Part shown: one piece after another, positions 1-19,166 of the stretch
How the letters are laid out: each line of letters opens with the position of its first letter
Numbering within the stretch: position 1 is the first letter of the stretch
IMG/VR virus record: IMGVR_UViG_3300044960_000935
Span: 1-20,068 of that record
From: a virus
DNA length: 20,068 nt
Reading direction: 5' to 3' (one strand)
The notes under the pieces: model-generated
Told to the model about the DNA's origin: nothing
Databases searched by the model: none
The model's input: only the letters and a program-made list of their open reading frames with translations
Program-made: the position numbers and the translations under genes

Positions 1-816
1 ATGTGGATCAGCTTCCTTCGGGTCGGTCCGGGCCAGGTGCTGGCGGACATCATCGCCTCGGGGCGGGTGCCCGCGGTGCGGCTGACCGAGATCTTCCGGC
101 AGGCGGCGTCGAGCCGGATCGTGGTCAATGCGCATCGGATCAATGCCGGGCGGATGCCCGAGGTGGTGCGCGGCGACCCGGAGAGCGACTTCCACATCGT
201 CGAGGTTCCCGACCCGGAGACGGCGGCGGAGCGCATCGTCGAGCTGGTGCGGGAGCGCATTCCGCGCCGTTTTGGATTGGACCCGATCCGCGATGTGCAG
301 GTGCTCTGCCCGATGCAGCGTGGGGGTGCCGGGGCGCGGGCGCTCAATGTGGCGCTGCAGGCGGCGCTGAACCCTGCGGGCGCGCCGCGCGTCGAGCGCT
401 TCGGCTGGGTGTTCGCGCCGGGCGACAAGGTGATGCAGATCGACAACGACTACGAGCGCGAGGTGTTCAACGGCGATGTCGGACTGGTCCGGGCCGTGGA
501 TGCGGAGCTGGGCGAGCTGACGGTGGCCTTCGACGGGCGGGAGGTCGTCTACGGCTTCGGGGAACTGGATGCGCTGGTGCCGGCCTATGCGGTGACGATC
601 CACAAGAGCCAGGGCTCGGAATATCCGGCGGTGGTCGTTCCGGCACTGACGCAGCACTACAGCATGTTGCGGCGGAACCTCCTGTATACGGCGGTCACGC
701 GCGGCAAGCGGCTGGTGGTGCTGGTCGGACAGAGGCGGGCGCTGGCGATCGCGGTGAAGGACCGGGCCGGCCGCGGGCGCTGGACACGGCTCAGGGAGTG
801 GCTGGCGGCGGGGTGA
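1..816 (+). CDS. RecD2-like SF1B DNA helicase, C-terminal part, frameshifted at the window edge
   Basis: ATP-dependent 5'-3' DNA helicase of the RecD2/TraA group, cut by the window start. Visible motifs are FRQA (about residues 32-35 of this reading), GDKVMQ (141-146), [10 protein letters not shown] (200-209, motif V) and [10 protein letters not shown] (227-236, motif VI). The ATG at base 1 is not the true start. Bases 3-20 in another frame read VDQLPS, and from base 22 the listed frame reads VGPGQVL; together these give the family's motif III, DQLPSVGPG. Dropping one G from the GGG run at 20-22 restores it, so the gene carries a one-base insertion or a sequencing error. It ends at TGA 814-816, tail to tail with the phage spike gene 37 bp away. 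It is probably a host gene beside the prophage, although a phage-borne helicase cannot be excluded. Confidence 0.85.
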
Positions 817-8490: not shown

Positions 8491-8817
8491 TCAGGTGGTC
8501 TCCCCCTCGCGGCGGGCAGCAGCGCCCTCGGCCATGCCGACGCGGATCGCGAGCAGCAGTTCGGCGGCAGCCCAACCCATGGCGCCCAGGTCGCGCGCGG
8601 CGGCGAGAGCGGCCGGCATGTCCAGGCTCAGCCCGCCCATCGTGGCCTCGGCACAGGCCGTGCCGGCGGCCCAGCAGGCGTGCCCTTCGAGGCTGGTAGG
8701 CGCGTGCGCGGCGTAGGGGCAGGCCTCGGCGCAGTCGCGGGCGAGGGCCGCGCAGCCACGGCAGTATTCGGGCCCGCGGCCGAAGTGCCAGGCGGCGCGG
8801 GCCCTCAGCCGTTTCCC
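8491..8817 (-). CDS. T extension of tail assembly chaperone, made by -1 frameshift (GT protein)
   Basis: An open frame with no convincing start of its own, entered by a -1 slip at GGGAAAC (8817-8811) in the upstream chaperone gene. After the slip it adds 106 residues (starting RLRARAAWHF) and stops at 8491, 1 bp before the tape measure. This is the lambda G/GT arrangement, in which the rarer fusion binds the tape measure and tail tube during assembly. The extension has six cysteines in its first half: CRGC, then Cys at spacings of about 6, 3, 14 and 5. This suggests a metal site or disulfides and is followed by an Ala-rich helix. I do not recognise the T domain as a named family. The fusion would be about 228 residues from the 9182 start, or 236 from 9200. 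Confidence 0.8.
   Translation of the reverse strand, partial: GKRLRARAAWHFGRGPEYCRGCAALARDCAEACPYAAHAPTSLEGHACWAAGTACAEATMGGLSLDMPAALAAARDLGAMGWAAAELLLAIRVGMAEGAAARREGETT
8770..8817 (-). promoter_or_regulatory. Programmed -1 ribosomal frameshift element
   Basis: On the minus strand, heptamer G GGA AAC (8817-8811) is in the correct X XXY YYZ phase relative to the chaperone frame. A 6-nt spacer, GGCTGA (8810-8805), includes the zero-frame stop. Then GGGCCCGCG (8804-8796) pairs perfectly with CGCGGGCCC (8778-8770) across a 17-nt loop. Slippery site, spacer length and GC-only stem all match known -1 frameshift signals; lambda uses GGGAAAG at the same gene position. Confidence 0.85.
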
Positions 8818-9182
8818 TCGGCGACCACCGCGGCGACGGGGGCGGTGGCGCGGTCCCAGAAGGCGGCGGCGATGTCGTCGAGGTCCATCAGCCGCTCCAC
8901 CGCCTCGGGCGAGAGCGGCAGCTTCTGGCCGGCGGCGTCGCCCACGCCCTCCCAGGCGGTGACGGCGTGGCGAGCCAACGCCTTGACCAGGAAGGCGAAG
9001 GCCAAGCCGCGCGACATGTCGGGATCGAGGTCCTCGCCAGCGGCACGGATCGCGGCCAACTTTCGCGCGGCGGCCGCCTGCGCGGCGGCCATGACGGCGG
9101 TGGTCACGGGGCGGATCTCGACGCGCACGCCGCGCGGCAGGTCGAGCCAGTAGGGCTCGGTGGGGAGGTCGAGGGTGAGCAT
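8805..9182 (-). CDS. Tail assembly chaperone (lambda gpG analogue), zero-frame product
   Basis: A 125-residue protein located just before the tape measure, the usual site of the tail assembly chaperone that coats the tape measure and is absent from the finished virion. The chain begins MLTLDLPTEPYWLDLPRGV, has an Ala-rich helical middle (TTAVMAAAQAAAARKLAAI) and ends VAEGNG at TGA 8807-8805, three codons after the frameshift site begins. I prefer the ATG at 9182 because GGAGG lies 11 nt upstream; an ATG at 9200 would add six residues (MEGPYS) but has no clear ribosome site. The role is assigned from position plus the frameshift signal, since G proteins diverge strongly in sequence. Its start faces the Phd antitoxin gene, giving a divergent intergenic region of 54 bp. 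Confidence 0.8.
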   Translation of the reverse strand: MLTLDLPTEPYWLDLPRGVRVEIRPVTTAVMAAAQAAAARKLAAIRAAGEDLDPDMSRGLAFAFLVKALARHAVTAWEGVGDAAGQKLPLSPEAVERLMDLDDIAAAFWDRATAPVAAVVAEGNG

Positions 9183-9236
9183 GGAATAAGGACCCTCCAT
9201 GGGTTATGTATCTTGCAGGAACCAAGGAACCCCGCG

Positions 9237-9500
9237 ATGACCGAGCCGATGCTCAAGGTCCCGGCGGCCGAGGCGCAGCGGAACTTCGGCCTTTACCAGG
9301 ACAAGGCCCTCACCCAGCCCGTCGCCATCACCCGCAACGGGCGGCCACGAACGGTGCTGATCTCGATCGAGGAATACGAGCGCCTCAAGCGCCGCGACCG
9401 GCAGGTGGTGCGCACCGAGGACGCGCCGCAGGAGATCGTGGACGCCATCCTCGCGGCGCGGCCGCCAGAGGAGAACAAGCGCTTCGATCATGAGGTCTGA
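9237..9500 (+). CDS. Antitoxin, Phd/YefM family
   Basis: An 87-residue type II antitoxin that would neutralise the overlapping PemK-like toxin and repress its own promoter. The N-terminus is a Phd/YefM DNA-binding domain: LKVPAAEAQRNFGLYQDKAL, then VAITRNGRPRTVLISIEEYE (about residues 29-48), close to the family's hallmark RNGRPxxVLxSxxEYE. The charged C-terminus (APQEIVDAILAARPPEENKR) is the likely toxin-binding tail. The start at 9237 has AAGGAA 7 nt upstream; a longer open frame reaches back to 8967 but runs antisense through the chaperone gene and is rejected. An AT-richer tract (TTATGTATCTT, 9204-9214) sits where a promoter would be. It lies on the strand opposite to all the virion genes. 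Confidence 0.85.
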   Translation: MTEPMLKVPAAEAQRNFGLYQDKALTQPVAITRNGRPRTVLISIEEYERLKRRDRQVVRTEDAPQEIVDAILAARPPEENKRFDHEV

Positions 9501-9933
9501 CGCGCCGGCGCTGCCGGCTGTCGGCGACGTGATCCGCTACGCCTACCTCTGGAGCCACGAGCACGCGGCTGGACGAGAGGAAGGGTCGAAGGATCGTCCG
9601 GCCGCGGTGGTGGCCCTGGTTCGCCAGGAGGACGGCCATTGTGAGGTCGTCGTCCTGCCGATCACCTCTACCCCGCCGGACGAGCCCGGTGCGGCGGTCG
9701 AGGTTCCCGCCGAAACCCGCGCCCGCCTCGGCCTGCAACGGGAGCCGTGCTGGGTCGTGGTCACCGAGTACAACCGCTTCGTCTGGCCGGGGCCGGACCT
9801 TCGCCCCGTCGAAGGCGGCACGGGGCCGTTCACCTATGGCCCGCTGCCCGACCGGGTGATGACTGAGATCCGTGCTGCCTTCGCGGCGTGGCGGCAGAAG
9901 CGCCGCGTCGCCGCCATTCGGCGCACCGAGTAG
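9490..9933 (+). CDS. Toxin, PemK/MazF-like
   Basis: A 147-residue putative endoribonuclease toxin of the MazF/PemK superfamily. Features are the N-terminal GDVIRYAYLW strand, KDRPAAVVALV (about residues 34-44, equivalent to the GxxRPxvVl element of MazF), VVVLPITSTPPDEP (residues ~53-66, like the CPIT segment) and VTEYNRFVWPGPDL. It is longer than typical MazF (about 110) because of a loop around WSHEHAAGREEG and a basic C-terminal tail. It overlaps the antitoxin by 11 bp, a normal TA layout. Pairing a MazF-fold toxin with a Phd antitoxin is less common than with a MazE-type one. The stop lies only 3 bp from the stop of the convergent tail tube gene. It appears intact. Confidence 0.75.
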   Translation: MRSDAPALPAVGDVIRYAYLWSHEHAAGREEGSKDRPAAVVALVRQEDGHCEVVVLPITSTPPDEPGAAVEVPAETRARLGLQREPCWVVVTEYNRFVWPGPDLRPVEGGTGPFTYGPLPDRVMTEIRAAFAAWRQKRRVAAIRRTE

Positions 9934-9936
9934 GTC

Positions 9937-10896
9937 TCACGCATACTCGCTCGCCTGCTGCTGGTTCCGGAGCACCACGGTCATCATGCGGCCGGCGGAG
10001 CTGTTGTAAGCGGCGCGGAACTCGAAGCTCGCCTCGACTCCTCCCGGCCCCTCGATCGGGGTCTTGGCGAGTGCCAGATAGACCTCGTGCAGGGTGAAGG
10101 TCAGGCTGCGGTTGGCGTCGATCGTGTAGCTGAAGGCGAACTCGGCTGGCGTGTTGTTCTGCGCCTGGGTCAGCAGCGTGGTGTCGGCGAAGCGCGCGGT
10201 GATCTGGCCGGTGGCGCGCGCGATGCCGGGATCCACCCCCTCCACCTTCCGGTCGGCGCGGATGGTGCGCACCATCTCCATCCCGTTGGCGTAGGTGAGC
10301 CGCGCCCCGGTCACCTGGGCGAGCGCGGAACCGTTGCGGCTGATCGCCCCTTGCGCCTTGTGGAAGGCGGTGTAGGCGGCGGCGCTGGTCGGCGTGCCGC
10401 CCGAGCTCGTGGCACCGCGCGTCGAGCCCTGGCCCATCAGCCCGAAGGTCGCGGTGGCGGGGCCGGTCGGCGAGAAGTCGATCTCCATCGTATCCGCGCG
10501 CACGCCGGTGCAGAGATCGTAGTTCGGCACGTCGGGATAGCCGATCTCGATGCTGTTCGAGGGCAGCGCCGCGGCGCCCGAGCCGAAGGTATGGACGAAG
10601 TCCGGGCTGGTGCCGGTGGTGGTGGGTGCCCCAAGCAGCAGGCGCAGCCAGTGGCCGATGTTGACGAGGTCGACCGGCACCACCGCCTGGCCCTGGACGG
10701 TGACGGTGTCGAGGAAGGGCGCGGCCGGATCGCGGCTGGAACCCACGCCGATGACGTCGGCATCGAGCAGCGGCTGCTCGGCGCCGAGGTCGCAGGAGAG
10801 GAAGGGCATGCGCAGCCAGTCGCCCGCGGGGGCGGTACCGTAGGTCGCCTCGGGGATCATGAGCAGGCGGCAATTGGCGCCGATGGCACGGGGCAT
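9937..10896 (-). CDS. Major tail tube protein
   Basis: A 319-residue structural protein predicted to polymerise into the tail tube. The N-terminus is RAIGANCRLLMIPEATYGTA, followed by DADVIGVGSSRDPAAPFLD and VDLVNIGHWLRLLLGAPTT; these are recognisable features of long phage tail tube proteins with pre-strand insertions. The C-terminal half is beta-rich (ARATGQITARFADTTLLTQA; LHEVYLALAKTPIEGPGGVE; AAYNSSAGRMMTVVLRN). Its place upstream of the chaperone and tape measure is the standard siphovirus order. The start ATG at 10896 has only a weak ribosome site. The gene that should precede it, the tail terminator, is reduced to a fragment. Confidence 0.85.
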   Translation of the reverse strand: MPRAIGANCRLLMIPEATYGTAPAGDWLRMPFLSCDLGAEQPLLDADVIGVGSSRDPAAPFLDTVTVQGQAVVPVDLVNIGHWLRLLLGAPTTTGTSPDFVHTFGSGAAALPSNSIEIGYPDVPNYDLCTGVRADTMEIDFSPTGPATATFGLMGQGSTRGATSSGGTPTSAAAYTAFHKAQGAISRNGSALAQVTGARLTYANGMEMVRTIRADRKVEGVDPGIARATGQITARFADTTLLTQAQNNTPAEFAFSYTIDANRSLTFTLHEVYLALAKTPIEGPGGVEASFEFRAAYNSSAGRMMTVVLRNQQQASEYA

Positions 10897-10931
10897 CGGG
10901 GGTCGCCGGGATCAGCGGAAGGGAGGAAGCG

Positions 10932-11111
10932 TCAGGCCAGCGGCGAGCCGGCGACGGTGAAGAACAGGCTGACGGGCACCAGCCCGGCACGGGCCGCGGC
11001 GGCGCCCTCGACCTCGACATCCTCGAACTCGGGCGCGCCGGGCTGCGACCAGTCCACCGCACCGCCGAGGCTGCGGTCGGCGGTGATGGCGGCGCCGATG
11101 TCCACCAGCGG
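10932..11111 (-). pseudogene. Tail terminator/completion protein, C-terminal remnant
   Basis: About 59 codons (PLVDIGAAITADRSLGGAVD through LVPVSLFFTVAGSPLA) with the look of the C-terminus of a tail terminator protein: conserved RSLGG, PGAPE and a closing VPVxLxFT strand. There is no start codon or ribosome site in this frame near the fragment, and the expected N-terminal ~80 residues are missing. The frame is joined, one base out, to the DUF6441 gene upstream. The stop at 10932 is normal, 35 bp before the tail tube start. A terminator caps the tail and lets it join the head, so loss would block virion assembly. The family call is by resemblance and position. Confidence 0.6.
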
Positions 11112-11659
11112 CCCTTGCGGTTGCCGGTGCCGACCTCGGCGAGGCCGCCGGCAATGAGGCGGGTGCGGCGGCGCCGGCCGGTCTGCTCGCCCTGCTGCAG
11201 CGGCAGGCACCACACGAAGCCCCGCCCCGATCTGAAGGGCCGCAGGAAGCCCTGCCCGGAGGCGACCATCTGCGCCGGCGTCACCCGCATCCCCTTCTCG
11301 CCGCGGCCCCGGCGCCCCCGCGCCGCGGTGAAGCCGGTCGGGATGGCGAGGAACTTCCGCCCGCCCCTTGCACGGATCAGCGCGCCGCGCTCGAAGGCGT
11401 CGATGACATGGGGCGCCCTGGTCCAGACCAGCCCCGCGGGCCGCAGCGACTGGCCCGAGGACTGGAAGACCCGCGCGCGCCAGGCGTTGGCGATGCCGCG
11501 CCCCCTCCCCCCGAAGGCCGACACCACCTGCTGCCGCAGCTCCTGCTTGACCTGCTCGGTCTCGGCGCGGATCGCCGTCATGGCCGCCCGCTCACCGGCG
11601 CGGACCTCGGTGGCGAGCACCTGCCGCAGGTCGCCGAGGAGGGTGGCGGTGAGCTTCAC
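11111..11659 (-). pseudogene. DUF6441-like phage protein, C-terminally disrupted
   Basis: A morphogenesis protein of the DUF6441 type, usually found between head-tail joining and tail genes. The reading starts at GTG 11659 (VKLTATLLGDLRQVL), in a GTGA overlap with the holin-like gene. It has an N-terminal helical region (ERAAMTAIRAETEQVKQELR), then GIANAWRARVFQSSG and RAPHVIDAFERGALIRARGG, which are family features, and FLAIPTGFTAARG. After about 183 residues (AEVGTGNRKG, near 11111) the frame turns into Arg/Pro-rich shadow sequence and finds no stop for over 1 kb, crossing the tail tube gene. The terminator fragment picks up in the frame one base away. The usual family C-terminus is not visible, so a deletion fusing two genes, or a lost C in a GGGCC(C)G run, is likely. 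Confidence 0.65.
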
Positions 11660-11976
11660 GGCCGGTCCTGGCCCCGCGGCAGGCCGGCGCGGTGGCGGAT
11701 GATCGCGACCGCGAGATCGTGCAGCGCCGCCTGGCCGAGATAGCCGAACACGAAGGCAAAGAGGAACCTTCCGTACTCGTTGAACTCGAGGAAGCCCCCG
11801 AGCGCATAGCCGGCGCTGCCGAGCAGGGCGGCGGAGGGCAGTTCCCAGGCGAGGCGCCAGCCGAAGCGCCGGCGCTCCGGGTGGTTCCAGCGCACGAAGC
11901 CCCCGGCGAGACCGGCCGCGGCGCCGATCGCGAGTTCGACCGCCATCGCCCAGACGCTCGGGCTGTTCTGCGGCAT
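11656..11976 (-). CDS. Small membrane protein, putative holin
   Basis: A 106-residue protein with three hydrophobic segments at about residues 10-28 (MAVELAIGAAAGLAGGFV), 47-64 (LPSAALLGSAGYALGGFL) and 70-95 (FLFAFVFGYLGQAALHDLAV), and a charged C-terminal tail (RHRAGLPRGQDRP). Size, topology and the endolysin gene two places upstream suggest a class I holin, possibly of the LydA-like group, that would form pores in the inner membrane. The start ATG 11976 has GGAG six bases upstream. Oddly, it is not next to the endolysin; the FII-like joining gene lies between. Another membrane role is possible, since the sequence alone does not prove lysis function. Confidence 0.6.
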   Translation of the reverse strand: MPQNSPSVWAMAVELAIGAAAGLAGGFVRWNHPERRRFGWRLAWELPSAALLGSAGYALGGFLEFNEYGRFLFAFVFGYLGQAALHDLAVAIIRHRAGLPRGQDRP

Positions 11977-11985
11977 GGGCGTCTC

Positions 11986-12294
11986 CTATCGCTGGCAGAA
12001 CACGCGCCAGGCGGTGCCGGAGGCATCGCGCTCGGCGTGGGTGACGGTGAGCAGGTCGGGGCCCAGCTCGAATGTGTCGCCCGCGGCGAGACCGGGCAGC
12101 GTGGCGATGGCGACCGAGAGGACGTCGGTCGCCGCGAGGATCTCGGTCCCGAAGGCTTGGCCGACGCGATCGGGCGAGGAGCGCAGGACGCGCACCGCAA
12201 CTGGCGGGCCGGAGCCGCCCTGCCGGTAGAGGGCTTCGACCCCGAGGTTCGGGTCGGCCACCAGCGCGGCCATCGCCTCCGCGAAGGCGTTCAC
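11986..12294 (-). CDS. Head-tail joining protein (FII-like)
   Basis: A 102-residue head-tail connector protein of the lambda FII-like group (often labelled 'ATP-binding sugar transporter-like' in phage annotations). It opens with VNAFAEAMAALVADPNLGVE and has YRQGGSGPPVAVRVLRSSPD, then GTEILAATDVLSV and AAGDTFELGPDLLTVT, ending WRVFCQR. The acidic/Asp-Pro N-terminal helix and the GDTFxLGxxxxTV strand pattern are family marks. The start is GTG 12294-12292 in a GTGA overlap with the endolysin stop. It would sit at the portal-tail interface. Confidence 0.75.
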   Translation of the reverse strand: MNAFAEAMAALVADPNLGVEALYRQGGSGPPVAVRVLRSSPDRVGQAFGTEILAATDVLSVAIATLPGLAAGDTFELGPDLLTVTHAERDASGTAWRVFCQR

Positions 12295-12818
12295 GATGCC
12301 CCCACCATGGCCAGAGCCTTGCCGCGCACCTCCTGCACGCGGCGGCTCCAGCCGCGCCGGAAGGCGGGCCAGTGCGGCAGGGTTTCCAGGAATGCCAACC
12401 GGAGACTGCAGAGGCGGGCGATGACATCGGCGCGGTCTTGCGCCCGGCGCACAGCCCGCAGCGTCTGCGGGCCGATCACACCATCGGGCGTGAGGCCAAG
12501 CGCCCCCTGCAACCAGAGGGCCGCGCGACGCCGCCCGCTGTGCACCGCGGCGTCGAACACGGCCAGGTCGATCCCGGCCGGCAGCTCGTCGCCATGCACG
12601 GCGTTCCAATAGTGCGCGCGGTAGATGGCGCGCGCCTCGGCCTCGGTCAGCGAGCGCACATGCTCGCAGGTCACCGGCTGACGTCGCCAGCCTTCCAGGG
12701 TGCGGCGGGTTATGCCCCGGTTGGTGCAGCCGCCGGGATCCTGGGTGTGGTCGACGTAGCCGCCCTCGTGGCGCCGCACCTCGGCCAAGCAGGCGGCGAA
12801 GCGATCGGGCCGTGGCAT
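12291..12818 (-). CDS. Endolysin, GH108 family lysozyme
   Basis: A 175-residue peptidoglycan hydrolase. The N-terminal domain is glycosyl hydrolase 108 (ZliS/secretion-activator type): RRHEGGYVDHTQDPGGCTNR then GIT, with catalytic Glu18 in HEGGY. Cys31 stands where the family often has Ala or Pro. The C-terminal half has the PG_binding_3-like pattern (LAVFDAAVHSGRRRAALWLQ, LGLTPDGVIGPQTL). No signal peptide is visible, so export would need a holin. The gene starts at ATG 12818 within a TGATG overlap with DUF2190 and ends in GTGA with the joining gene. A lysis gene inside the head-tail connector block is unusual; lambda-like phages normally keep lysis genes elsewhere. Confidence 0.9.
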   Translation of the reverse strand: MPRPDRFAACLAEVRRHEGGYVDHTQDPGGCTNRGITRRTLEGWRRQPVTCEHVRSLTEAEARAIYRAHYWNAVHGDELPAGIDLAVFDAAVHSGRRRAALWLQGALGLTPDGVIGPQTLRAVRRAQDRADVIARLCSLRLAFLETLPHWPAFRRGWSRRVQEVRGKALAMVGAS

Positions 12819-13168
12819 CACGCCCCTGCGGCCGGCACGCGGGCGAGCATCACCCGCACCGTGGCGTCCGATGCCGCGGCTGCTATGGTCGCGATACCGA
12901 CCTGGACGTTGCCGGTCGCGGTGGTGGTGATGCGGCGGTTGGTGTCGTCCCAGAACAGCCGCGCTCCGGCAGAGATGGCCTGGGCGGGGTCCTTCGGCAG
13001 CTCGAACTCGCCGCGGGTCTCGCATTCGACGGTTTCGTTCTGCGCGGCGTCGGAGGCCGCCACCCCGAAGAAGGCGCCGACCAGCAGGCCCTGACCGGCG
13101 AGGATGCCACCGGCGTAGGGCACCACCATCGGGATGGAACGGGCGTCGGGACGGAGGCAGTTGCGCAT
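12818..13168 (-). CDS. DUF2190 capsid-associated protein (decoration/cement)
   Basis: A 116-residue protein of the DUF2190 family, found just after the major capsid gene in many phages and thought to decorate or stabilise the head. Seen features are MVVPYAGGILAGQGLLVGAF, FGVAASDAAQNETVECETRG, the ELPKDPAQAISAGARLFWDD stretch and ITTTATGNVQVGIATIAA, all typical of the family's small beta-barrel. The start ATG 13168 has AGGAG eight bases upstream. It faces the MazE gene across an 89-bp divergent gap; before that insertion it would have followed the capsid gene directly. Confidence 0.85.
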   Translation of the reverse strand: MRNCLRPDARSIPMVVPYAGGILAGQGLLVGAFFGVAASDAAQNETVECETRGEFELPKDPAQAISAGARLFWDDTNRRITTTATGNVQVGIATIAAAASDATVRVMLARVPAAGA

Positions 13169-13227
13169 GGATGGGTCTCCTGCGGTGGGTGGAGGCGCGG
13201 CGCGGCTTGAAGTCCGGCCAGTCGCGC

Positions 13228-13239
13228 GTTACATGTAAC
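13228..13239. promoter_or_regulatory. Perfect palindrome upstream of mazE, candidate autoregulatory operator
   Basis: GTTACATGTAAC is a perfect 12-bp palindrome in the 89-bp divergent gap, 18 bp before the mazE start. It is AT-rich in otherwise GC-rich DNA. MazE or MazEF complexes typically bind such sites near their own promoter. The site could also affect the DUF2190 side. Confidence 0.5.
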
Positions 13240-13257
13240 CCGGTGTTGGAGGTACCG

Positions 13258-13506
13258 ATGCCCGGCTCCGAAGTCCGCAAGCGGGTCGCCGCCCATCGTG
13301 CCGCGCTGCGCCGGCGCGGGCTGCGACCGATCCAGATCTGGGTGCCGGATACCCGCGCTCCCGGCTTCGCCGAGGAGGCGCGCCGTCAGTCGCGGCTGGT
13401 CGACGCCGACCGCGCGGAATTCGACGATGTGATGGGGTTCATCGAGCGCAATTCCGCCTGGCCGGAGGATGACAGCGACGTCCCCGACTACGATGCGCCG
13501 CGGTGA
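13258..13506 (+). CDS. mazE: Antitoxin, MazE family (DUF3018 type)
   Basis: An 82-residue antitoxin of the DUF3018/MazE-like family. The hallmark is VRKRVAAHRAALRRRGLRPI followed by QIWVPDTRAPGFAEEARRQS (about residues 26-45), then an acidic, likely disordered toxin-binding tail (WPEDDSDVPDYDAP). The start ATG 13258 is set by GGAGG five bases upstream. The frame could open earlier, at 13171, but that would cross the palindrome and lacks a ribosome site. It overlaps the toxin by 14 bp and is encoded opposite to the virion genes. Confidence 0.88.
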   Translation: MPGSEVRKRVAAHRAALRRRGLRPIQIWVPDTRAPGFAEEARRQSRLVDADRAEFDDVMGFIERNSAWPEDDSDVPDYDAPR

Positions 13507-13825
13507 TGTCGTTCTCGTCGCCGACCGTGACGGTGGTGACTATGCGGGCAAGCCTCGCCCGGCGGTGGTGATCCAGTCCGATCTCTACGACCAGACGCTG
13601 AGCGTCGTGGTCTGCCCGGTGACCTCGGTGCCGAAGGATGCGGGTCTGCTGCGGGTGCCGCTGTTGCCCAGCGACAGCCTGGCGCTGCGGGCACCGAGCT
13701 GGGTGATGGTGGACAAGCTCACCAGCATCCGGCGGGATCGGGTCGGAGGCGTGATCGGCCGCATCTCGGACGACGAGGCGTTGGCGCTGAACCGCAGCCT
13801 CGCCGTGTTCCTGGGCTTCGCCTGA
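13493..13825 (+). CDS. mazF: Toxin MazF, mRNA interferase
   Basis: A 110-residue sequence-specific endoribonuclease of the MazF family, of normal length. It has MRRGDVVLVADRDGGDYAGK (the RGDvv start), KPRPAVVIQSDLYDQTLSVV (residues 20-39, with the conserved RPaVViQ), VCPVTSV (about 41-47) and PSWVMVDKLTSIRRDRVGG (about 68-86), the known MazF core including the catalytic-region Arg and Thr positions. It looks intact. Its TGA (13823-13825) directly abuts the stop of the convergent capsid gene, the two together making TGATCA, so no terminator fits between them. Confidence 0.92.
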   Translation: MRRGDVVLVADRDGGDYAGKPRPAVVIQSDLYDQTLSVVVCPVTSVPKDAGLLRVPLLPSDSLALRAPSWVMVDKLTSIRRDRVGGVIGRISDDEALALNRSLAVFLGFA

Positions 13826-15922
13826 TCAGGTCCCCGGGTTGAACCAGGCGCCGCGCCAGTCGATGGCGCCGACACCGAAGTCGAAGATCACGCTGACCTC
13901 GACGCCGTCCGCGCCCTGCACCGGGCCGGTGGTGACCTGCGGTCCCTCGGCGCCGTTGAGGTAGCCGTAGACATAGACCGGTGCCGCGACCGGGTCGGAG
14001 AACAGGTACCAGCGGTTCGCCCCGATCAGCGGCTCGATCACCGGCTGCACGAAGCCGGCAAAGACATTCGCCTTGCCGATCTCGCTCGCCTGCACGACCA
14101 CGGTCGCCTGGCGCGCCGCGAGCTCGAGGTTCGGCCCGACCAGCAGGCGCATGGTCTGGCCCATCGAGATCGGCAGGCCGTCGAGCGTGCGCTGCTTCAT
14201 GATGGCGGCGCGGCCGGCGCCGATGGTCGCGGTGTCGAGCGGCGTGCCGGTGCCGGCCTTGTTGGCGCGCGCGGCAGCGGTGCCGAACACCGCGGCGCTG
14301 CCGGTGGCGAGCGTCGGACCGTCGCCGTTGGCGCTGTTGAGCAGGTTGTAGGCGGTCGCGTTCTCGAACTCGGCGACGCGGCGGCCGATGGCGGCGGCGA
14401 AGTCGGTGAAGGCGCCAAGATCATCGTTGACCAGCATCGGCCGCGTCACGCGCAGGCGCCGCGCGAAGGTCTGCAGCAGCACGATCTCCTGGCTCTCGGA
14501 CATGGTGCCGACCTGGATCTCGCCGTTCTCGGCGAGCGGCAGCAGGGTCGGGAAGTCGCCGATGCGCAGGTGTCGGTGCGGCTTGAAGTCGCGGAAGTCG
14601 CGGCGGAGGAAGATCTGCCGGTAGGTCGGCTGCGCCGGCTGATAGGCGGCGAGCAGCATCTTGTTGGCGGCGGCCGCCAGTAGCAGCGGGAAGTCGGAAC
14701 TGGTGTGGAAGGCGCGCTCGGCGAGCAGGGTCGGGTTGCGCGGGACCTGGCGATCGCCGCGCAGGCGGAGGAGCTCGCCGATCATGTCGGACGGGCGCCA
14801 GCCCAGGAACTCCGCATGGCGGCCCTCCCCGCGCGGCTGGTAGCCGGGCATGGCGCGGGCGGCGATGGCCTCGGCCATGGCGTCGAGGATCTGCGCCGGG
14901 TCGTCGTGGCCGGGGCCGGTCTCGGGGCGCGCCGGAATGGACGGGCGGGGCCCCTGCGCCACCAGGGCGTCGAACAGGGCGCGGCGGGCCTGGTCGCCGG
15001 TCCAGCCGGCCGCGATGGCCTCCGCGCGGATCGGGGCGATGCGCTCGGGCGGCAGGAGGGCGCGGGCCGCCTCGACCGCGGCGTCGATGCCGGCGATGCG
15101 TTCGCGCTCGGCGCGCCGGGCCTCGGCGCGCACGGCATCGAGATCGGGCGCCGGCACGGCCGGTGGGGGCGCGGACGAGTTGGCCGGTGCGGGGCTGGCG
15201 GTCACGGTGGTCTCCTGGGGCGGGGTGGACGGCGCAGCGGAGGGCGGCGCCGACAGGGCAGCAGCCGGGGTGTCCGGCGTCGTCTCGGGCATGGTGGTGT
15301 CCTCGTCGGGCAGGGCGGGTTCGATCGCGATGGCGGGCGCGCCCTGCGGCGCCTCGCCACGCACCGCCGCATCCCGATCCACCGGGACCGGCACGACGGA
15401 GATCTCGAAGGGTTCCCAGTCCACCGCGCGGTGGATGGTCTCGCCGGTGGCGGGGTCGGCGCGCGGCTCGTAGCGGTGCACGCGATAGCCGACGCTCACC
15501 GCCCGCAGCGTGCCGTCGGCGATGCGCTGCCAGACCGGCTCGACATCGGCCGCGGCGCTGAACTGCAGCGTGGCATAGCCGCGGCCGCGCTCGAGACGGG
15601 CGGCAGTGACGCGGCCGAGCACATCGCGGGCATCGCCGCGGCGGTGGGTGTTCAGCACTGGGGCCTGGCCGGAGCGGAGCGCCTCCATGCGCACCGCGTT
15701 CGGGGACATCTCCAGCTCCTCGGTGATCAGGCCGAGGGCGGGGACGAAGTTGCGGGCCCGCGCGCCCGTGCTCCACACCACCTCGACGGTGCGGGCGGCA
15801 CGATCCACGGTGGCGGGCGCGGTGATGGCGCGCTGCGCGACCAGGGGAATGTCCCCGGCCATCGGCGCAACAGCAGGCTCCGGCGCGGCATCACTGCCGC
15901 CCGGCTCGGTGGTTTCGGTCAT
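13826..15922 (-). CDS. Prohead protease / major capsid protein fusion
   Basis: A 698-residue polyprotein combining scaffold protease and capsid subunit. Residues ~30-200 are an HK97-type U35 prohead protease: QAPVLNTHRRGDARDVLG with catalytic His93, LRAVSVGYRVHRYE with Ser143, and FEISVVPVPVDRDA. Residues ~200-290 are a Pro/Ala-rich linker that may act as scaffold. The rest is a HK97-fold capsid protein (FLGWRPSDMIGELLRLRGDR; QTFARRLRVTRPMLVNDDLG; SVIFDFGVGAIDWRGAW near the end). Lambda and HK97 use separate genes, but this fusion is a known class in proteobacterial phages. The protease would cleave itself away during head maturation. The start ATG 15922 is 50 bp from the portal stop and has a modest AGGG site. 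The C-terminus looks complete despite the abutting mazF. Confidence 0.93.
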   Translation of the reverse strand: MTETTEPGGSDAAPEPAVAPMAGDIPLVAQRAITAPATVDRAARTVEVVWSTGARARNFVPALGLITEELEMSPNAVRMEALRSGQAPVLNTHRRGDARDVLGRVTAARLERGRGYATLQFSAAADVEPVWQRIADGTLRAVSVGYRVHRYEPRADPATGETIHRAVDWEPFEISVVPVPVDRDAAVRGEAPQGAPAIAIEPALPDEDTTMPETTPDTPAAALSAPPSAAPSTPPQETTVTASPAPANSSAPPPAVPAPDLDAVRAEARRAERERIAGIDAAVEAARALLPPERIAPIRAEAIAAGWTGDQARRALFDALVAQGPRPSIPARPETGPGHDDPAQILDAMAEAIAARAMPGYQPRGEGRHAEFLGWRPSDMIGELLRLRGDRQVPRNPTLLAERAFHTSSDFPLLLAAAANKMLLAAYQPAQPTYRQIFLRRDFRDFKPHRHLRIGDFPTLLPLAENGEIQVGTMSESQEIVLLQTFARRLRVTRPMLVNDDLGAFTDFAAAIGRRVAEFENATAYNLLNSANGDGPTLATGSAAVFGTAAARANKAGTGTPLDTATIGAGRAAIMKQRTLDGLPISMGQTMRLLVGPNLELAARQATVVVQASEIGKANVFAGFVQPVIEPLIGANRWYLFSDPVAAPVYVYGYLNGAEGPQVTTGPVQGADGVEVSVIFDFGVGAIDWRGAWFNPGT

Positions 15923-15972
15923 GTGAATATCCCTGGGGGAGAAGCCTGGGACGATCTGTGGACAGGCGACGC

Positions 15973-17454
15973 TCAGCCGAGCTCCACCTGGCTCGCAGCC
16001 GCCTGGCGCAGAGGAGCCGCCGCGCCGGTCGCGGCGATCTCGACGGCGGCCATCTGCGCGGCGTCCTGGGCGGTGCCGGACTTGGCGACCCGGCGCGGAT
16101 CGGTGTCGAGCGAGATGCCGGCGTCATCGAGCAGCGCATTCGCCTCGCGGATCATCTCCACCGCCGCCCGGAAGTCGTAGCCGAAGGCGCCCACCGCCTC
16201 CGGCTGCGACACGAAGCCGGCCCGCACCTGGGCGATCAGGGCGGTGGTGTCCTTGAGCGGGTCGATCATCTCGTGCGCCGGCGGGACATGGCTGACGCCG
16301 TCGGGCATCTCCGCGCCCCACAGCCCCAGCAGCGCGCCCTGGGCGTGGAAGCGCTCGGCGATGGGCCGCACCAGCATCGGGATCAGCATGCCGTACTGGA
16401 CCTGCTCGCACAGGCGACGGAACTCGATCTTGCCCGCGCGGAGGGAGGAGTAATTGGCCTGCGTCAGGTCGCCGGAGACCTGGTCGTAGGTCAGGCCCGC
16501 GCCGACGGCGGCGGCCTCCAGGGCGCGTCGGGCGAAGGCGGCGTGGCTCCCGCCGCCCGAGGGGTTCACCACCTCCACGCTGCCCATGCCGCGGCGATAG
16601 AGGATCATCCCCGGCTCGAAGCTCTCGACGGCCCGGCCCTGGGCGTCACGGAGCAGGCCGGCCGCCGCGCCGGTCAGGGCCTCATCGCCTTCTTCGGTGA
16701 CCACCGCCGCCAGGCAGGCCTCGATCTTGGCCTTCATCAGCAGGGCGGCCTCGTAGTCGCCGAGGTCGCGCAGCCGCAGCAGCACGGGCGCGAGCCAGGA
16801 GACGTCGCGCAGCTGCCCGGGCCGGCGCTTGCGATAGACGTGCAGCACCTCGCCCGCCGGGATGCGCTCGCTCGCCATCCGGACCCCTTGGAGCATCCAG
16901 GCGCCCGGATGGGTCGGGAACAGCCAGTAACCGATCGGCGCGCCGGCCTCACCGAGAGCGATGCCCTGGATGGTCGGCGCGCCCGCCACCATGCCGTTGC
17001 GCGCGGTGTCGAGATGGTCGCTTTCCAGCACCTGCAAGCGAAGCCCGACCGGATTGGCGACCGATGGCGGCGCCATGAGGAAGCGGACGAAGCACTCGCC
17101 GCTCTCGACCACCGCCCGCATCACCAGGGCCTGCAGCCCGTAGAGGTCGAGCCGCCCCTCGGCATCGCAGGCGGCGCTCTCCGCCCAGCGCTGCCAGGCA
17201 CGGCCATGCGCGTCATCGGGCCAGCGCGTGGTGATCCCGGCGCCGACCGCATTGCCGGTCCAGAGATCGACGATGCGGGCGGCATAGGGGTCGTTGCGCA
17301 CGGCATCGCGGGCACGGCGCGCGACCGTCGCCGCGGCCAGGCCGACCTCGGCGTTGGCGCTGCCGCCGGAGGGTGTCCAGGCCGAGGCGCGGTGGTCCTG
17401 CGCCGCGGCGTAGCCGCGAAGCACCTGCCAAGCTGCACGCAGGCGTTCCATCAT
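15973..17454 (-). CDS. Portal protein, lambda family
   Basis: A 493-residue dodecameric portal through which DNA enters and leaves the head. Typical lambda gpB-family features are ARDAVRNDPYAARIVDLWTG (about residues 47-66), then NAVGAGITTRW, VMRAVVESGECFVRFL, VLESDHLDTARNG, and GEVLHVYRKRRPGQLRDVSW plus LAPVLLRLRDL. GLTYDQVSGDLTQANYSSLR is also a strong family motif. The length is close to lambda gpB (533). The start ATG 17454 has GGAG eight bases upstream; a second ATG follows at once. It is separated from the gpW gene by the VapBC insertion, where one would expect direct adjacency. Confidence 0.95.
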   Translation of the reverse strand: MMERLRAAWQVLRGYAAAQDHRASAWTPSGGSANAEVGLAAATVARRARDAVRNDPYAARIVDLWTGNAVGAGITTRWPDDAHGRAWQRWAESAACDAEGRLDLYGLQALVMRAVVESGECFVRFLMAPPSVANPVGLRLQVLESDHLDTARNGMVAGAPTIQGIALGEAGAPIGYWLFPTHPGAWMLQGVRMASERIPAGEVLHVYRKRRPGQLRDVSWLAPVLLRLRDLGDYEAALLMKAKIEACLAAVVTEEGDEALTGAAAGLLRDAQGRAVESFEPGMILYRRGMGSVEVVNPSGGGSHAAFARRALEAAAVGAGLTYDQVSGDLTQANYSSLRAGKIEFRRLCEQVQYGMLIPMLVRPIAERFHAQGALLGLWGAEMPDGVSHVPPAHEMIDPLKDTTALIAQVRAGFVSQPEAVGAFGYDFRAAVEMIREANALLDDAGISLDTDPRRVAKSGTAQDAAQMAAVEIAATGAAAPLRQAAASQVELG

Positions 17455-17494
17455 CCTGCGATCTCCACTGGAAGCCGCCCGCGCGAGGCATTAA

Positions 17495-17522
17495 GTAAGA
17501 CCCGACAAAACTGCGGTATTAC
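17495..17522. promoter_or_regulatory. Imperfect inverted repeat upstream of vapB, candidate operator
   Basis: GTAAGACC (17495-17502) and GGTATTAC (17515-17522) are inverted copies matching at 7 of 8 positions, separated by 12 bp. They lie in an AT-richer pocket immediately before the vapB ribosome site (AGGAG, 17523-17527). AbrB-type antitoxins usually bind such repeats to repress their own operon. Confidence 0.4.
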
Positions 17523-17533
17523 AGGAGCGCCCT

Positions 17534-17782
17534 ATGGCGACGACGGTCACGACCAAGGGTCAGGTCACCATCCCGAAGGAGGTGCGCGACCTCCTCGGCA
17601 TCAAGCCTGGCAGCGCCGTCACCTTCGAGGTCGCCGAGGATGGCCGTGTGGTGCTGAGCAAGGCCGGTGGTCGGCGCGGGGCCCCGGCGCGGCCCTCGAG
17701 CCGCTTTGCCAAGCTGCGCGGCCGTGCCACCGCCGGCATGACCACAGACGAGATCATGGCGCTGACCCGCGGCGAGGAGTGA
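17534..17782 (+). CDS. vapB: Antitoxin VapB, AbrB/SpoVT family
   Basis: An 82-residue antitoxin with an N-terminal swapped-hairpin DNA-binding domain: TKGQVTIPKEVRDLLGIKPG (residues 7-26), then VTFEVAEDGRVVLSKA, the classic SpoVT-AbrB signature. The C-terminal third (FAKLRGRATAGMTTDEIMAL) is the toxin-binding helix region seen in VapB proteins. It starts at ATG 17534 behind AGGAG with a 6-nt spacer. The vapC remnant follows after 1 bp. The antitoxin looks fully intact although its partner is not; it could still bind its operator, or neutralise a related VapC made elsewhere in the host. Confidence 0.9.
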   Translation: MATTVTTKGQVTIPKEVRDLLGIKPGSAVTFEVAEDGRVVLSKAGGRRGAPARPSSRFAKLRGRATAGMTTDEIMALTRGEE

Positions 17783-17783
17783 G

Positions 17784-17960
17784 GTGACCCTCGTCGACAC
17801 CAATGTGCTGCTCGACCTCGTTACCGACAACGCGGATTGGGCGGAATGGTCGCAGCGACAGCTGGAAGCCGCGGCCGTGCGCGGGCCGGTGCTGACCCGG
17901 GATGTCCGCCGGTATCGTTCCTACTTTCCCACCGTTCGGCTGATCGCACCGGCGGGCTGA
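17784..17960 (+). pseudogene. vapC: VapC PIN-domain toxin with large internal deletion
   Basis: A 58-residue remnant starting at GTG 17784 (VTLVDTNVLLDLVTDNADWA), the PIN-domain N-terminus with the first catalytic Asp (residue 5). At about residues 35-37 it jumps to LTRDVRRYRSYFPTVRLIAP, the extreme C-terminus of VapC. Family members are about 130-140 residues, so roughly 75 central residues are gone, including the conserved central Glu and the Asp-rich active-site segment. The frame is kept across the junction (nt ~17886-17894). Such a product cannot form the Mg-binding acidic pocket and is presumably inactive as an RNase. The stop at 17960 lies 14 bp from the convergent gpW gene stop. Confidence 0.8.
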
Positions 17961-17974
17961 CAGCGAGCCGCCGA

Positions 17975-18211
17975 TCACCTGCCATGGCCCCGCGAGAAGC
18001 TGGCCAGCGTCACCGAGGGCCGCCGCGCGGTGCTGTTCTCCGCCCCGCGCAGCACGGCGAGCGCCCGGCCGATCTCATCCAGGCTCCGATACTCGACGGT
18101 GCGCCCCTCGAAGCTCACGCGCGTGGTGCCGCCGGTGTAGACGGCGGCGAGCGCGGCGGCGCGGCTGCCGGGGGGCTGCGCCAGTGCCCAGGCGAGGACG
18201 GCCGGGTCCAT
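17975..18211 (-). CDS. Head-tail joining protein, gpW-like
   Basis: A 78-residue protein resembling the gpW head-completion family: LAALAAVYTGGTTRVSFEGR then TVEYRSLDEIGRALAVLRG, with the amphipathic helix, beta-hairpin (TTRVSFEGRTVEYRS) and second helix of that fold. gpW plugs the portal after DNA packaging and provides the tail attachment surface. The start is ATG 18211 in an ATGA overlap with the upstream stop. In lambda the order is terminase, W, portal; here two extra genes precede it and a TA cassette follows it. Confidence 0.85.
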   Translation of the reverse strand: MDPAVLAWALAQPPGSRAAALAAVYTGGTTRVSFEGRTVEYRSLDEIGRALAVLRGAENSTARRPSVTLASFSRGHGR

Positions 18212-18816
18212 CACGCGGCCCTGAGTGTGGGCAGCGGCGTCGCCGCGTTGACAAGATAGGACAGGCCGCTCGGCGGGTTCGGCATGATCGGCGCAGCGGC
18301 CTGATGGGTCAGCGGCGCGAAGAACCCGTTCTCGCTGCCGGTGCCGCCGCCCGATCCGCCATCGGCCGCGGTCGAGCCGAGCAGCAGCGTGTTCCCCCCG
18401 CTGAAGGCCTGGGTGGAGGTGCCGCGCACCGAGGGCGTGCCCGAGAAGCACAGCAGCAGCCACCAGATGCCAGCCGAAATCCAGCGCGGTTGCGCGAAGG
18501 GGCAGATTGCCGCGCCAGCGTTGGCAGTGTCGGCGTCCACGAGCGGCTCCTCGATCACCGCCCCCGGCCGCCCGGCGCCGTTGTCGGCGGCGAGCGCCAT
18601 GCGCAGGAGGCCCGCGGCACCGGTGGTCACGCTCACCGCCATGGCCGAGAACAGGCCGGGTCGGGCGAGCACATAGGGCACGCAGTAGAGCCGGTTCGCC
18701 ACCATGGCGAGAGACGCCCCGACGGCGCGCGCATGCTGCGAGGCGTAGAAGCGCCCCGGGACGTAGGGCAGCATCGCCGGGCCGGGCGGGAGGTAATGCT
18801 GGAACAGCGCGGTCAT
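18211..18816 (-). CDS. Unrecognised virion-like protein
   Basis: A 201-residue protein I do not recognise. It begins MTALFQHYLPPGPAMLPYVP and contains YASQHARAVGASLAMVANRL, a hydrophobic patch (PRWISAGIWWLLLCFSGTPS) and a Gly/Ser-rich loop (STAADGGSGGGTGSENGFFA) near the C-terminus. Alternating short hydrophobic strands and small-residue loops suggest a beta-sandwich structural or decoration protein, not an enzyme. It overlaps both neighbours by ATGA junctions, so it is part of the late operon. Its position between terminase and gpW is not standard for lambda-like phages. Confidence 0.65.
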   Translation of the reverse strand: MTALFQHYLPPGPAMLPYVPGRFYASQHARAVGASLAMVANRLYCVPYVLARPGLFSAMAVSVTTGAAGLLRMALAADNGAGRPGAVIEEPLVDADTANAGAAICPFAQPRWISAGIWWLLLCFSGTPSVRGTSTQAFSGGNTLLLGSTAADGGSGGGTGSENGFFAPLTHQAAAPIMPNPPSGLSYLVNAATPLPTLRAA

Positions 18817-19166
18817 GCGAGCGCCCGGATGCCGAGGGTGATGGTGCGGGCGGCGGCCTGGTTCACTGGCGCCGCGGCAAGGCCGGAGCGCAGCCGGAGC
18901 CAGCGCCAGCCGAGCAGCAGGGTGGGCGGCAGGGTCAGCGCGCGGCCGGCGGCGACGCTCAGCACCACCTCGTTGCCGAGGTGGTCGTGAAGGTCGGCCC
19001 AGGCCGTGGGCTCGCCCTCGTCGAGCGAGCCCTGGACGGTGAGCGGGGCGTCGGTCCAGGCCGCGGGCAGCAGCAGCAGGCAGACGCCGTAGCCGACGCT
19101 GGCGACCGGCGCGCTCAGCGCCTGGCCGGCGGCGATCGTGGTGCGCACCGGGACGAGGGCGGTCAT
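18813..19166 (-). CDS. Unrecognised small virion-like protein
   Basis: A 117-residue protein with no family I can name. The core (PLTVQGSLDEGEPTAWADLH, DHLGNEVVLSVAAGRALTLP, LLLGWRWLRLRSGLAAAPVN) reads like a jelly-roll module of the kind found in phage fibres and decoration proteins: a strand with sensed value, a 'W..L.D..G' turn, then 'G.RWLR.RSG'. It starts at ATG 19166 with GGAG six bases upstream, 14 bp after the terminase stop, and overlaps the next gene by ATGA. It may work with that next gene as a pair. Confidence 0.65.
   Translation of the reverse strand: MTALVPVRTTIAAGQALSAPVASVGYGVCLLLLPAAWTDAPLTVQGSLDEGEPTAWADLHDHLGNEVVLSVAAGRALTLPPTLLLGWRWLRLRSGLAAAPVNQAAARTITLGIRALA

Follow-up and report, generated by a model that had tools for sequence, protein, structure and literature searches.

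Why should toxin-antitoxin (TA) genes lie in the middle of the genes that build a phage particle, pointing against them, and how did they come to be there? The question is raised by the IMG/VR virus record IMGVR_UViG_3300044960_000935, which was studied over its 20,068 bases and is called the window here. Its virion genes lie on the minus strand from about 20 kb down to position 854, in the order terminase, two small genes, head-tail adaptor, portal, capsid, cement, endolysin, attachment protein, holin, tail tube, chaperone, tape measure, and more tail genes, and the window is probably the virion operon of a tailed-phage lineage of Acetobacterales, borne on a prophage. We denoted as sites A, B, and C the junctions between tail tube and tail assembly chaperone (tube-chaperone), between capsid and cement (capsid-cement; the cement gene is the DUF2190 gene of an earlier reading of this DNA, the original prediction), and between the gpW-like head-tail adaptor and the lambda-type portal (gpW-portal), respectively. 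Plus-strand pairs stand at all three: Phd-PemK at site A (9237-9933), MazE-MazF at site B (13258-13825), and AbrB(VapB)-VapC′ at site C (17534-17960). The original prediction saw here three TA cassettes of one antisense geometry. The places of the pairs and their convergent stop-to-stop gaps (3, 0, and 14 bp) are borne out by measurement, but VapC′ is a deletion product, so only two cassettes (A and B) are complete. With antisense genes nested within a co-directional gene series, gene order and strands have the layout of a noncontiguous operon, a single virion transcript being assumed.

TA modules at these junctions converge tail to tail on the virion gene upstream, take the place of the usual junction or split it, and bring a divergent upstream region; they are gained and lost rapidly. 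That the operon has several places for small accessory cassettes to dock in antisense orientation is part of the explanation that we favor, and we put its chance at about one half.

Relatives on viral contigs came from searches with the tail tube (55 loci), the portal (best 80 of 506), and the capsid (best 80 of 448), and relatives on genome contigs were the best 80 of 204; the comparison set comprised 278 loci and the window. Because loci were chosen by likeness to the window, all frequencies are valid for that neighborhood. Redundant junctions were merged via shared k-mers, gaps >6 kb were left uncounted, and a junction was scored as empty when its gap was <200 bp, the counts being made on distinct (merged) junctions. 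By NCBI ranks, 71 of the 80 genome loci belong to Acetobacterales (Roseomonadaceae 50, Acetobacteraceae 19, Elioraeaceae 2), and the others are metagenome-assembled genomes titled Rhodospirillales (4), Methylocystis (2), Rhodobacteraceae, Fimbriimonadaceae, and Microbispora. At least two loci occurred in 20 of 53 assemblies (counted via accession prefix), so polylysogeny is common.

All three junctions occur empty in relatives (gpW-portal: 108/139; capsid-cement: 109/151; tube-chaperone: 6/91), which upholds the prediction that the cassettes split neighboring gene pairs and shows that the same cassettes are not fixed in all relatives. As expected of morons, they are present or absent between genes that are adjacent in relatives. 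The genes of empty gpW-portal junctions mostly overlap as GTGA or stand 8 bp apart, and in five of the six empty tube-chaperone pairs the end of the tube gene overlaps or directly meets the start of the chaperone gene; in the filled loci displayed, the next virion gene usually has a GGAG-type site ahead of it. Antisense TA genes were found at 16/139 distinct gpW-portal, 31/151 capsid-cement, and 28/91 tube-chaperone junctions (75 in total), and antisense placement is a strong bias, not a rule. Three other junctions have taken no cargo (chaperone-g8491: 0/90; holin-gp10: 0/69; p7787-holin: 0/68 distinct junctions).

Unrelated TA families share the same junctions, and each family is almost wholly confined to one. 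Fourteen TA clusters, themselves found at these junctions, were run by tblastn against all loci, the matches being left unmerged. The antisense matches were AbrB (25/25) and VapCb (11/11) at gpW-portal; MazE (24), MazF (18), Phd of the VapC pair (30), VapCa (15), and VapCc (12) at capsid-cement; and PemK (16), Phd of the PemK pair (17), ParD (27), and ParE (26) at tube-chaperone. Antisense matches off these sites were two ParE before TerL and one VapCc beyond cement; otherwise there was one junction per family, and some additional matches have only one flank. Sense matches were six RelB and three YafQ at gpW-portal and three ParE at TerL-gpW.

Spacing was measured for antisense toxins lying ≤400 bp from the upstream stop. 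The toxin stop was 0-27 bp from the upstream gene stop in 51 of 58, six others were at 92-315 bp, and one overlapped by 10 bp. At site B, the MazF TGA abuts the capsid stop, TGATCA spanning both stops at 13823-13828, and TGATCA recurs among MazF, VapCc, and ParE cassettes. Empty capsid-cement gaps carry a GC-rich hairpin (z < -2 in 104/109, with 30 mononucleotide shuffles each; e.g., L063 and L149), and in TA carriers the cassette occupies the place of this hairpin, flanked by the stop of the capsid gene on one side and the ribosome site of cement on the other. The prediction of insertion at stop codons has to be amended at site B accordingly: the cassette stands in place of the hairpin. Among nine hand-picked filled sites, raw folding energies of the last 85 bases were -19.0 to -26.0 kcal/mol in eight, the exception being L041 (-32.5 kcal/mol, also a raw energy), which has a stem of its own. 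We suggest only that the hairpin might be an attenuator or a protector of an mRNA end.

The history of the cassettes was examined on 69 distinct operons with all six flanking genes (from 100 loci), by means of a FastTree tree of five concatenated proteins, which is approximate because the concatenation crosses recombining genes. TA genes were present at zero, one, two, and three sites in 41, 21, 2, and 5 operons, respectively, and carriers were scattered over the tree (9, 10, and 17 state changes for 9, 11, and 20 carriers). The closest operons to the window are L149 (Caldovatus sediminis), which has no recognized TA gene at sites A-C, and L020 (an IMG/VR contig), which has ParDE at the tail site only. 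Empty sites and scattered carriers rule out fixed ancestral genes. Duplication of one cassette is likewise ruled out, as the original prediction held, since the antitoxin families differ by Pfam and rarely switch sites.

We compared cassette identity with flank identity by rank correlations over non-independent pairs (flank against flank in brackets). PemK gave 0.35 with the tube and 0.20 with the chaperone (tube-chaperone 0.81), Phd 0.20 and 0.16 (0.82), ParE 0.06 and 0.25 (0.27), VapCa 0.43 and 0.19 (0.36), and VapCc 0.43 and 0.87 (0.34). These values argue clearly for independent movement between lineages, at the same site, for Phd-PemK only. In 21 host genomes, PemK had 14 matches. Five of them, at ≥71% identity, were all in phage, four between tube and chaperone and one (L281) beside a chaperone with no tube match; the nine at ≤56% had no core gene in the fetched 1.5-kb flanks. 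MazF had four matches at ≥75% at capsid-cement and one at 41% elsewhere in these genomes, and VapC had two at ≥90% at gpW-portal, with L301 (81%) and less similar relatives lying elsewhere, so the VapC family is less phage-bound. Plasmid relatives numbered 512 records for PemK (509 at <60% identity), 260 for MazF (all <60%), and 144 for VapC (102 at >60%), and 50,697 deposited phages held one PemK, no MazF, and no VapC record. Because TA families are faithful to one junction and their close host copies lie at phage junctions, the best reading of these sequence comparisons is that few founding insertions occurred per site and then spread between phages. The repeated moron insertion of the original prediction thus survives as separate insertions, but not as continual insertion at stop codons.

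Median dN/dS (nonsynonymous to synonymous substitution rate ratio) was 0.08-0.22 for TA genes (RelB 0.33) and 0.16-0.23 for virion genes, and no TA pair exceeded 1 (pairs of 72-98.5% identity, dS 0.05-2.5). TA genes are under purifying selection. Homologous antisense cassettes at the same junctions in many relatives, together with dN/dS well below 1, indicate that the arrangement is not due to chance. Triple carriers were more numerous than expected under independence (5/69 vs. 0.42), with two of the five (L187 and L266) depending on partial or weaker matches. A tree-aware pair test gave observed vs. expected pairs of 4.0 vs. 0.1, 3.1 vs. 1.1, and 2.1 vs. 0.1 (P = 0.125, 0.625, and 0.5), the pairs being too few to reach 0.05; with so few independent contrasts we do not claim co-selection of the three cassettes. 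Differing TA families in co-resident prophages are suggestive in Rubritepida flocculans, but the two loci of M090S1 share AbrB and RelB, and such cases are few.

The modules are adjacent antitoxin and toxin genes of known families; the antitoxins and the site B toxin exceed Pfam cut-offs, and an NCBIfam search gave no match for PemK, MazF, or MazE. The toxins of sites A and B are full length, and site C, with its toxin deleted, is an incomplete module. At site A, a Phd/YefM antitoxin of 87 aa (9237-9500, plus strand; PF02604, E = 1.5e-14; median dN/dS 0.13), whose cluster lies antisense after the tail tube in 18/18 matches, is followed by a PemK/MazF-like toxin of 147 aa (9490-9933, plus strand), the stop of which is 3 bp from that of the tail tube, as in 10/10 distinct loci measured. 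This toxin falls under the Pfam cut-off (PF02452, E = 0.0013; 19.4 bits vs. a gathering score of 23.1), and a sequence search of the PDB with PemK gave no match. An AlphaFold2 model (mean predicted local distance difference test score 71, built with 8 sequences) had MazF chains as all 28 of its best PDB matches (best E = 3.2e-4), only two of these being at E ≤ 0.001 and the template modeling score to the query being ~0.5. The model match makes it likely that the toxin is MazF-like despite its sub-threshold Pfam score. Between the Phd and chaperone starts lies a divergent region (9183-9236) with a TATGTAT element in 10 of 13 carriers. The chaperone (8805-9182, minus strand; phrog_313, E = 4.6e-16) was re-assigned its start, more likely 9182, which is preceded by GGAGG and is the same start codon in several empty relatives; the tail tube is at 9937-10896 (minus strand; PF18906, E = 2.2e-55).

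Site B holds a MazE-like antitoxin of 82 aa (13258-13506, plus strand; PF11455, E = 1e-23 for a longer reading in the same frame), its start preceded by GGAGG, and a MazF/PemK toxin of 118 aa (13469-13825, plus strand; PF02452, E = 3.1e-23). Upstream of MazE, at 13228-13239, is the palindrome GTTACATGTAAC, a possible operator, which 12 of the 17 distinct carriers of MazE have (window counted). The neighbors are the cement protein (12818-13168, minus strand; PF09956, E = 1.2e-29) and the capsid (13826-15922, minus strand; PF25209, E = 1.7e-44), the N-terminal protease-like part of which is slightly under the cut-off (PF04586, E = 4.6e-4).

At site C, an intact AbrB/VapB antitoxin of 82 aa (17534-17782, plus strand; PF04014, E = 4.6e-14; TIGR01439, E = 7.9e-17) is followed by the 58-aa VapC′ (17784-17960, plus strand), in which residues 1-37 are fused in frame to the last 21. 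Alignment with the intact 134-aa VapC of L076, L151, and L069 shows an in-frame deletion of 228 nucleotides between short TGCTGA repeats, with the loss of two (E45 and D98) of what we take to be the four acidic residues of the PIN domain. AbrB occurs without a VapC match in L014, L165, and L268 also, and beside RelB in L265, L134, L187, L177, and L170. In L134 and L170, the gpW-portal junction holds sense RelB-YafQ adjoining antisense AbrB without VapC, two kinds of TA at one junction. The divergent region between the AbrB and portal starts (17455-17533) is similar in other AbrB-VapC carriers; the portal (15973-17454, minus strand; PF05136, E = 2.6e-95) lies to the left, and the gpW-like adaptor (17975-18211, minus strand; phrog_2545, E = 9.2e-11; no Pfam match) to the right. 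Divergent regions upstream of the cassettes are partly conserved, operator patterns found by eye being present in part of the carriers (PhdV 10/19, AbrB 6/16, PhdP 10/13, ParD 6/16).

Elsewhere in the window, a C-terminal part of a RecD-like helicase (1-816, plus strand; UvrD_C_2, SH3_13) adjoins the last tail gene and is possibly host DNA at the prophage edge. A GH108 endolysin (12291-12818, minus strand) stands amid the head-tail genes, with a tblastn match at the E 1e-4 threshold in only 3 of 279 sequences, including the window. The terminase-adaptor interval (18211-19166, minus strand) has two sense genes of 117 and 201 aa without a Pfam match, present in 46 and 45 distinct loci, respectively (window counted), and the portal-capsid junction of relatives, in 43 distinct loci and not in the window, has a sense gene of ~497 aa that perhaps encodes a virion decoration protein.

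The tube-chaperone junction is a hotspot beyond its TA genes. Its gap was ≥200 bp in 85 of 91 distinct junctions and held 107 cargo clusters of ≥60 aa. In orientation, cargo clusters there (open reading frames from our own caller) numbered 68 antisense vs. 27 sense (P = 3e-5). Among the matches listed for 106 cluster representatives, PADLOC named mads, RmrA, PtuA, and CapP (2-3 members each), and Pfam named DUF4238, SIR2, STAND, and HEPN/Toprim, plus metabolic genes and transposases. Cargo there reaches 5.8 kb (e.g., L014, L016, L018, L046, and L209), with many unnamed proteins and defense-like genes, and the junction is a place to seek new defense systems. An antisense pair of helix-turn-helix and PIN genes was found at 5/86 distinct g8491-tape measure junctions; the HTH_17-PIN pair of L190 (18402-19511) and relatives is possibly another kind of TA and an extra slot.

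What might the arrangement be for? The explanation that we favor, which we think about as likely to be right as wrong, is that these are maintenance or defense TA modules expressed in lysogeny within a noncontiguous-operon arrangement. In the lysogen, each cassette would be driven by a promoter of its own and would either stabilize the prophage as an addiction module or, through abortive infection, protect the cell. Once the prophage is induced, late transcripts would cross the cassettes antisense and lower TA expression, so that they would not harm the phage; antisense orientation would also prevent virion genes from being switched on by a cassette promoter during lysogeny. In the window phage, site C retains its antitoxin after losing most of its toxin. 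There are precedents for single steps: phi80 taiEcA lies antisense in the late operon and falls when Q is expressed (PMC11364771), and JBD26 tab is on the minus strand with its own promoter (PMC10884400).

Several results weigh against this explanation. Sense TA genes occur at 5/139 distinct gpW-portal and 3/128 TerL-gpW junctions (0/151 at capsid-cement and 0/91 at tube-chaperone; eight in total), the five gpW-portal loci also carrying antisense AbrB and hence being counted both ways; these eight junctions, with sense cargo at several sites, rule out a strict antisense rule and temper the original prediction. Among cargo clusters, the antisense bias falls short of significance at gpW-portal (4:3) and at capsid-cement (7:3). 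MazF (0.55 and 0.37; flanks 0.60) and VapCb (0.72 and 0.59; flanks 0.76) track their flanks about as the flanks track each other. A simple sigma-70 scan (E. coli-type consensus) of 9000-18300 found no promoter-like site, and the two plus-strand terminator-like sites in that interval (9191-9205 and 10127-10148) are no more than in shuffles. In phi80, mitomycin C left the TaiEcA level unchanged, and only the supply of Q lowered it (PMC11364771), which leaves silencing uncertain even in that phage. Finally, antitoxins usually decay faster than toxins, so that late shut-down could itself release toxin.

The strongest competitor, possible although clearly less probable, is that the modules are selfish or maintenance elements for which antisense orientation is only insulation: a sense cassette with a promoter of its own would activate virion genes in the lysogen or be over-expressed through late transcription, and late antisense transcription would not be regulatory. 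That cargo at the tail site is diverse, extends to metabolic genes, and shows the same antisense bias would fit this, as would the wealth of PemK and MazF relatives on plasmids and the mostly sense genes beside the upstream stop at TerL-gpW and portal-capsid. However, the tail-to-tail packing is tight, with no terminator-like site between the stops, so that overlapping transcription is likely and some interference is to be expected.

We consider it unlikely that the cassettes serve to release toxin on induction, antitoxin supply being stopped and the freed toxin shutting off host or competitor expression or aborting untimely induction. The geometry would suit this, as late polymerase would run through both TA genes first and meet the cassette promoter only afterward, and the toxin families are of RNA-cutting kinds, MazF/PemK-like toxins among them. 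But such ribonucleases would cut phage late mRNA too, and the VapC remnant of the window and the AbrB genes without a VapC match indicate that, where AbrB persists without intact VapC, the VapC toxin is dispensable.

Slightly less likely again is that TA modules act as sensors: leaky or external late transcription, from a co-resident or superinfecting relative, would tip the cassettes and arrest the cell, and an orphan AbrB would neutralize the toxin of co-residents. If true, TA pairs would be sensors of virion-operon activity. We regard as improbable a regulatory use, in which the antitoxin and its operator in the divergent region would control the downstream virion gene, with the toxin secondary; divergent regions do sit between antitoxin and virion gene starts and AbrB is retained without VapC, but most relatives are empty at sites B and C, and different antitoxins substitute for one another before the same gene. 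Assembly error or debris of a decayed prophage resembling cassettes, which a broken VapC′ in a 20-kb fragment might suggest, is hardly credible and is already contradicted by comparative data, the same families standing at the same junctions in isolate genomes (Neoroseomonas, Rubritepida, and Roseicella) with low dN/dS.

Antisense morons and phage hotspots are already known. For instance, arsB stands opposite in orientation among the structural genes of two Paracoccus prophages (PMC6536676), and Acetobacter prophage TA systems have been surveyed (PMC9379143). In the literature covered (titles and the beginnings of abstracts, with subscription journals and preprints mostly outside it), we did not find TA modules described as antisense slots in a virion operon; what appears new is several fixed antisense slots in one virion operon that take interchangeable TA modules. 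It yields a testable rule, that antisense slots for TA or other cargo recur at certain virion-gene junctions, while three others took none in this set. The naturally empty, filled, and toxin-deleted versions of a site allow one to ask whether TA genes are silenced by their antisense placement when the cell is lysed, and whether the role of prophage TA modules is maintenance, defense, or neither.

Among known systems, phi80 taiEcA/atiEcA is alike in being an accessory gene antisense in a late operon, expressed in the lysogen and lowered by Q (PMC11364771). It differs in being a single defense gene with a counter-defense partner, whereas here interchangeable type II TA modules occupy several sites. 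Pseudomonas phage JBD26 tab is also a minus-strand moron in a prophage late operon, with constitutive defense, but it blocks tail assembly, lies between terminase genes, and is not a TA pair (PMC10884400). The antisense architecture of S. aureus 80alpha tha/ith likewise ties a prophage immune gene to the life cycle, but there it is the inhibitor that lies antisense, the defense gene being part of the cI operon (PMC11087260). The antiviral hotspots of P2 and P4 resemble the present junctions in combining a fixed phage junction with fast-changing cargo that includes defense genes (PMC9122126); the P2 hotspot, however, is beside cos between A and Q, outside the head-tail operon (PMC9122126), and, unlike P2, the phages studied here have several junctions, two of them with TA pairs in most or many filled cases. 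Plasmid phd-pemK and mazE-mazF modules have homologous toxins, with a matching antitoxin annotated adjacent in several of the records listed, but identity is ~50% among the matches listed, and the phage PemK and MazF are closer to one another and bound to one junction.

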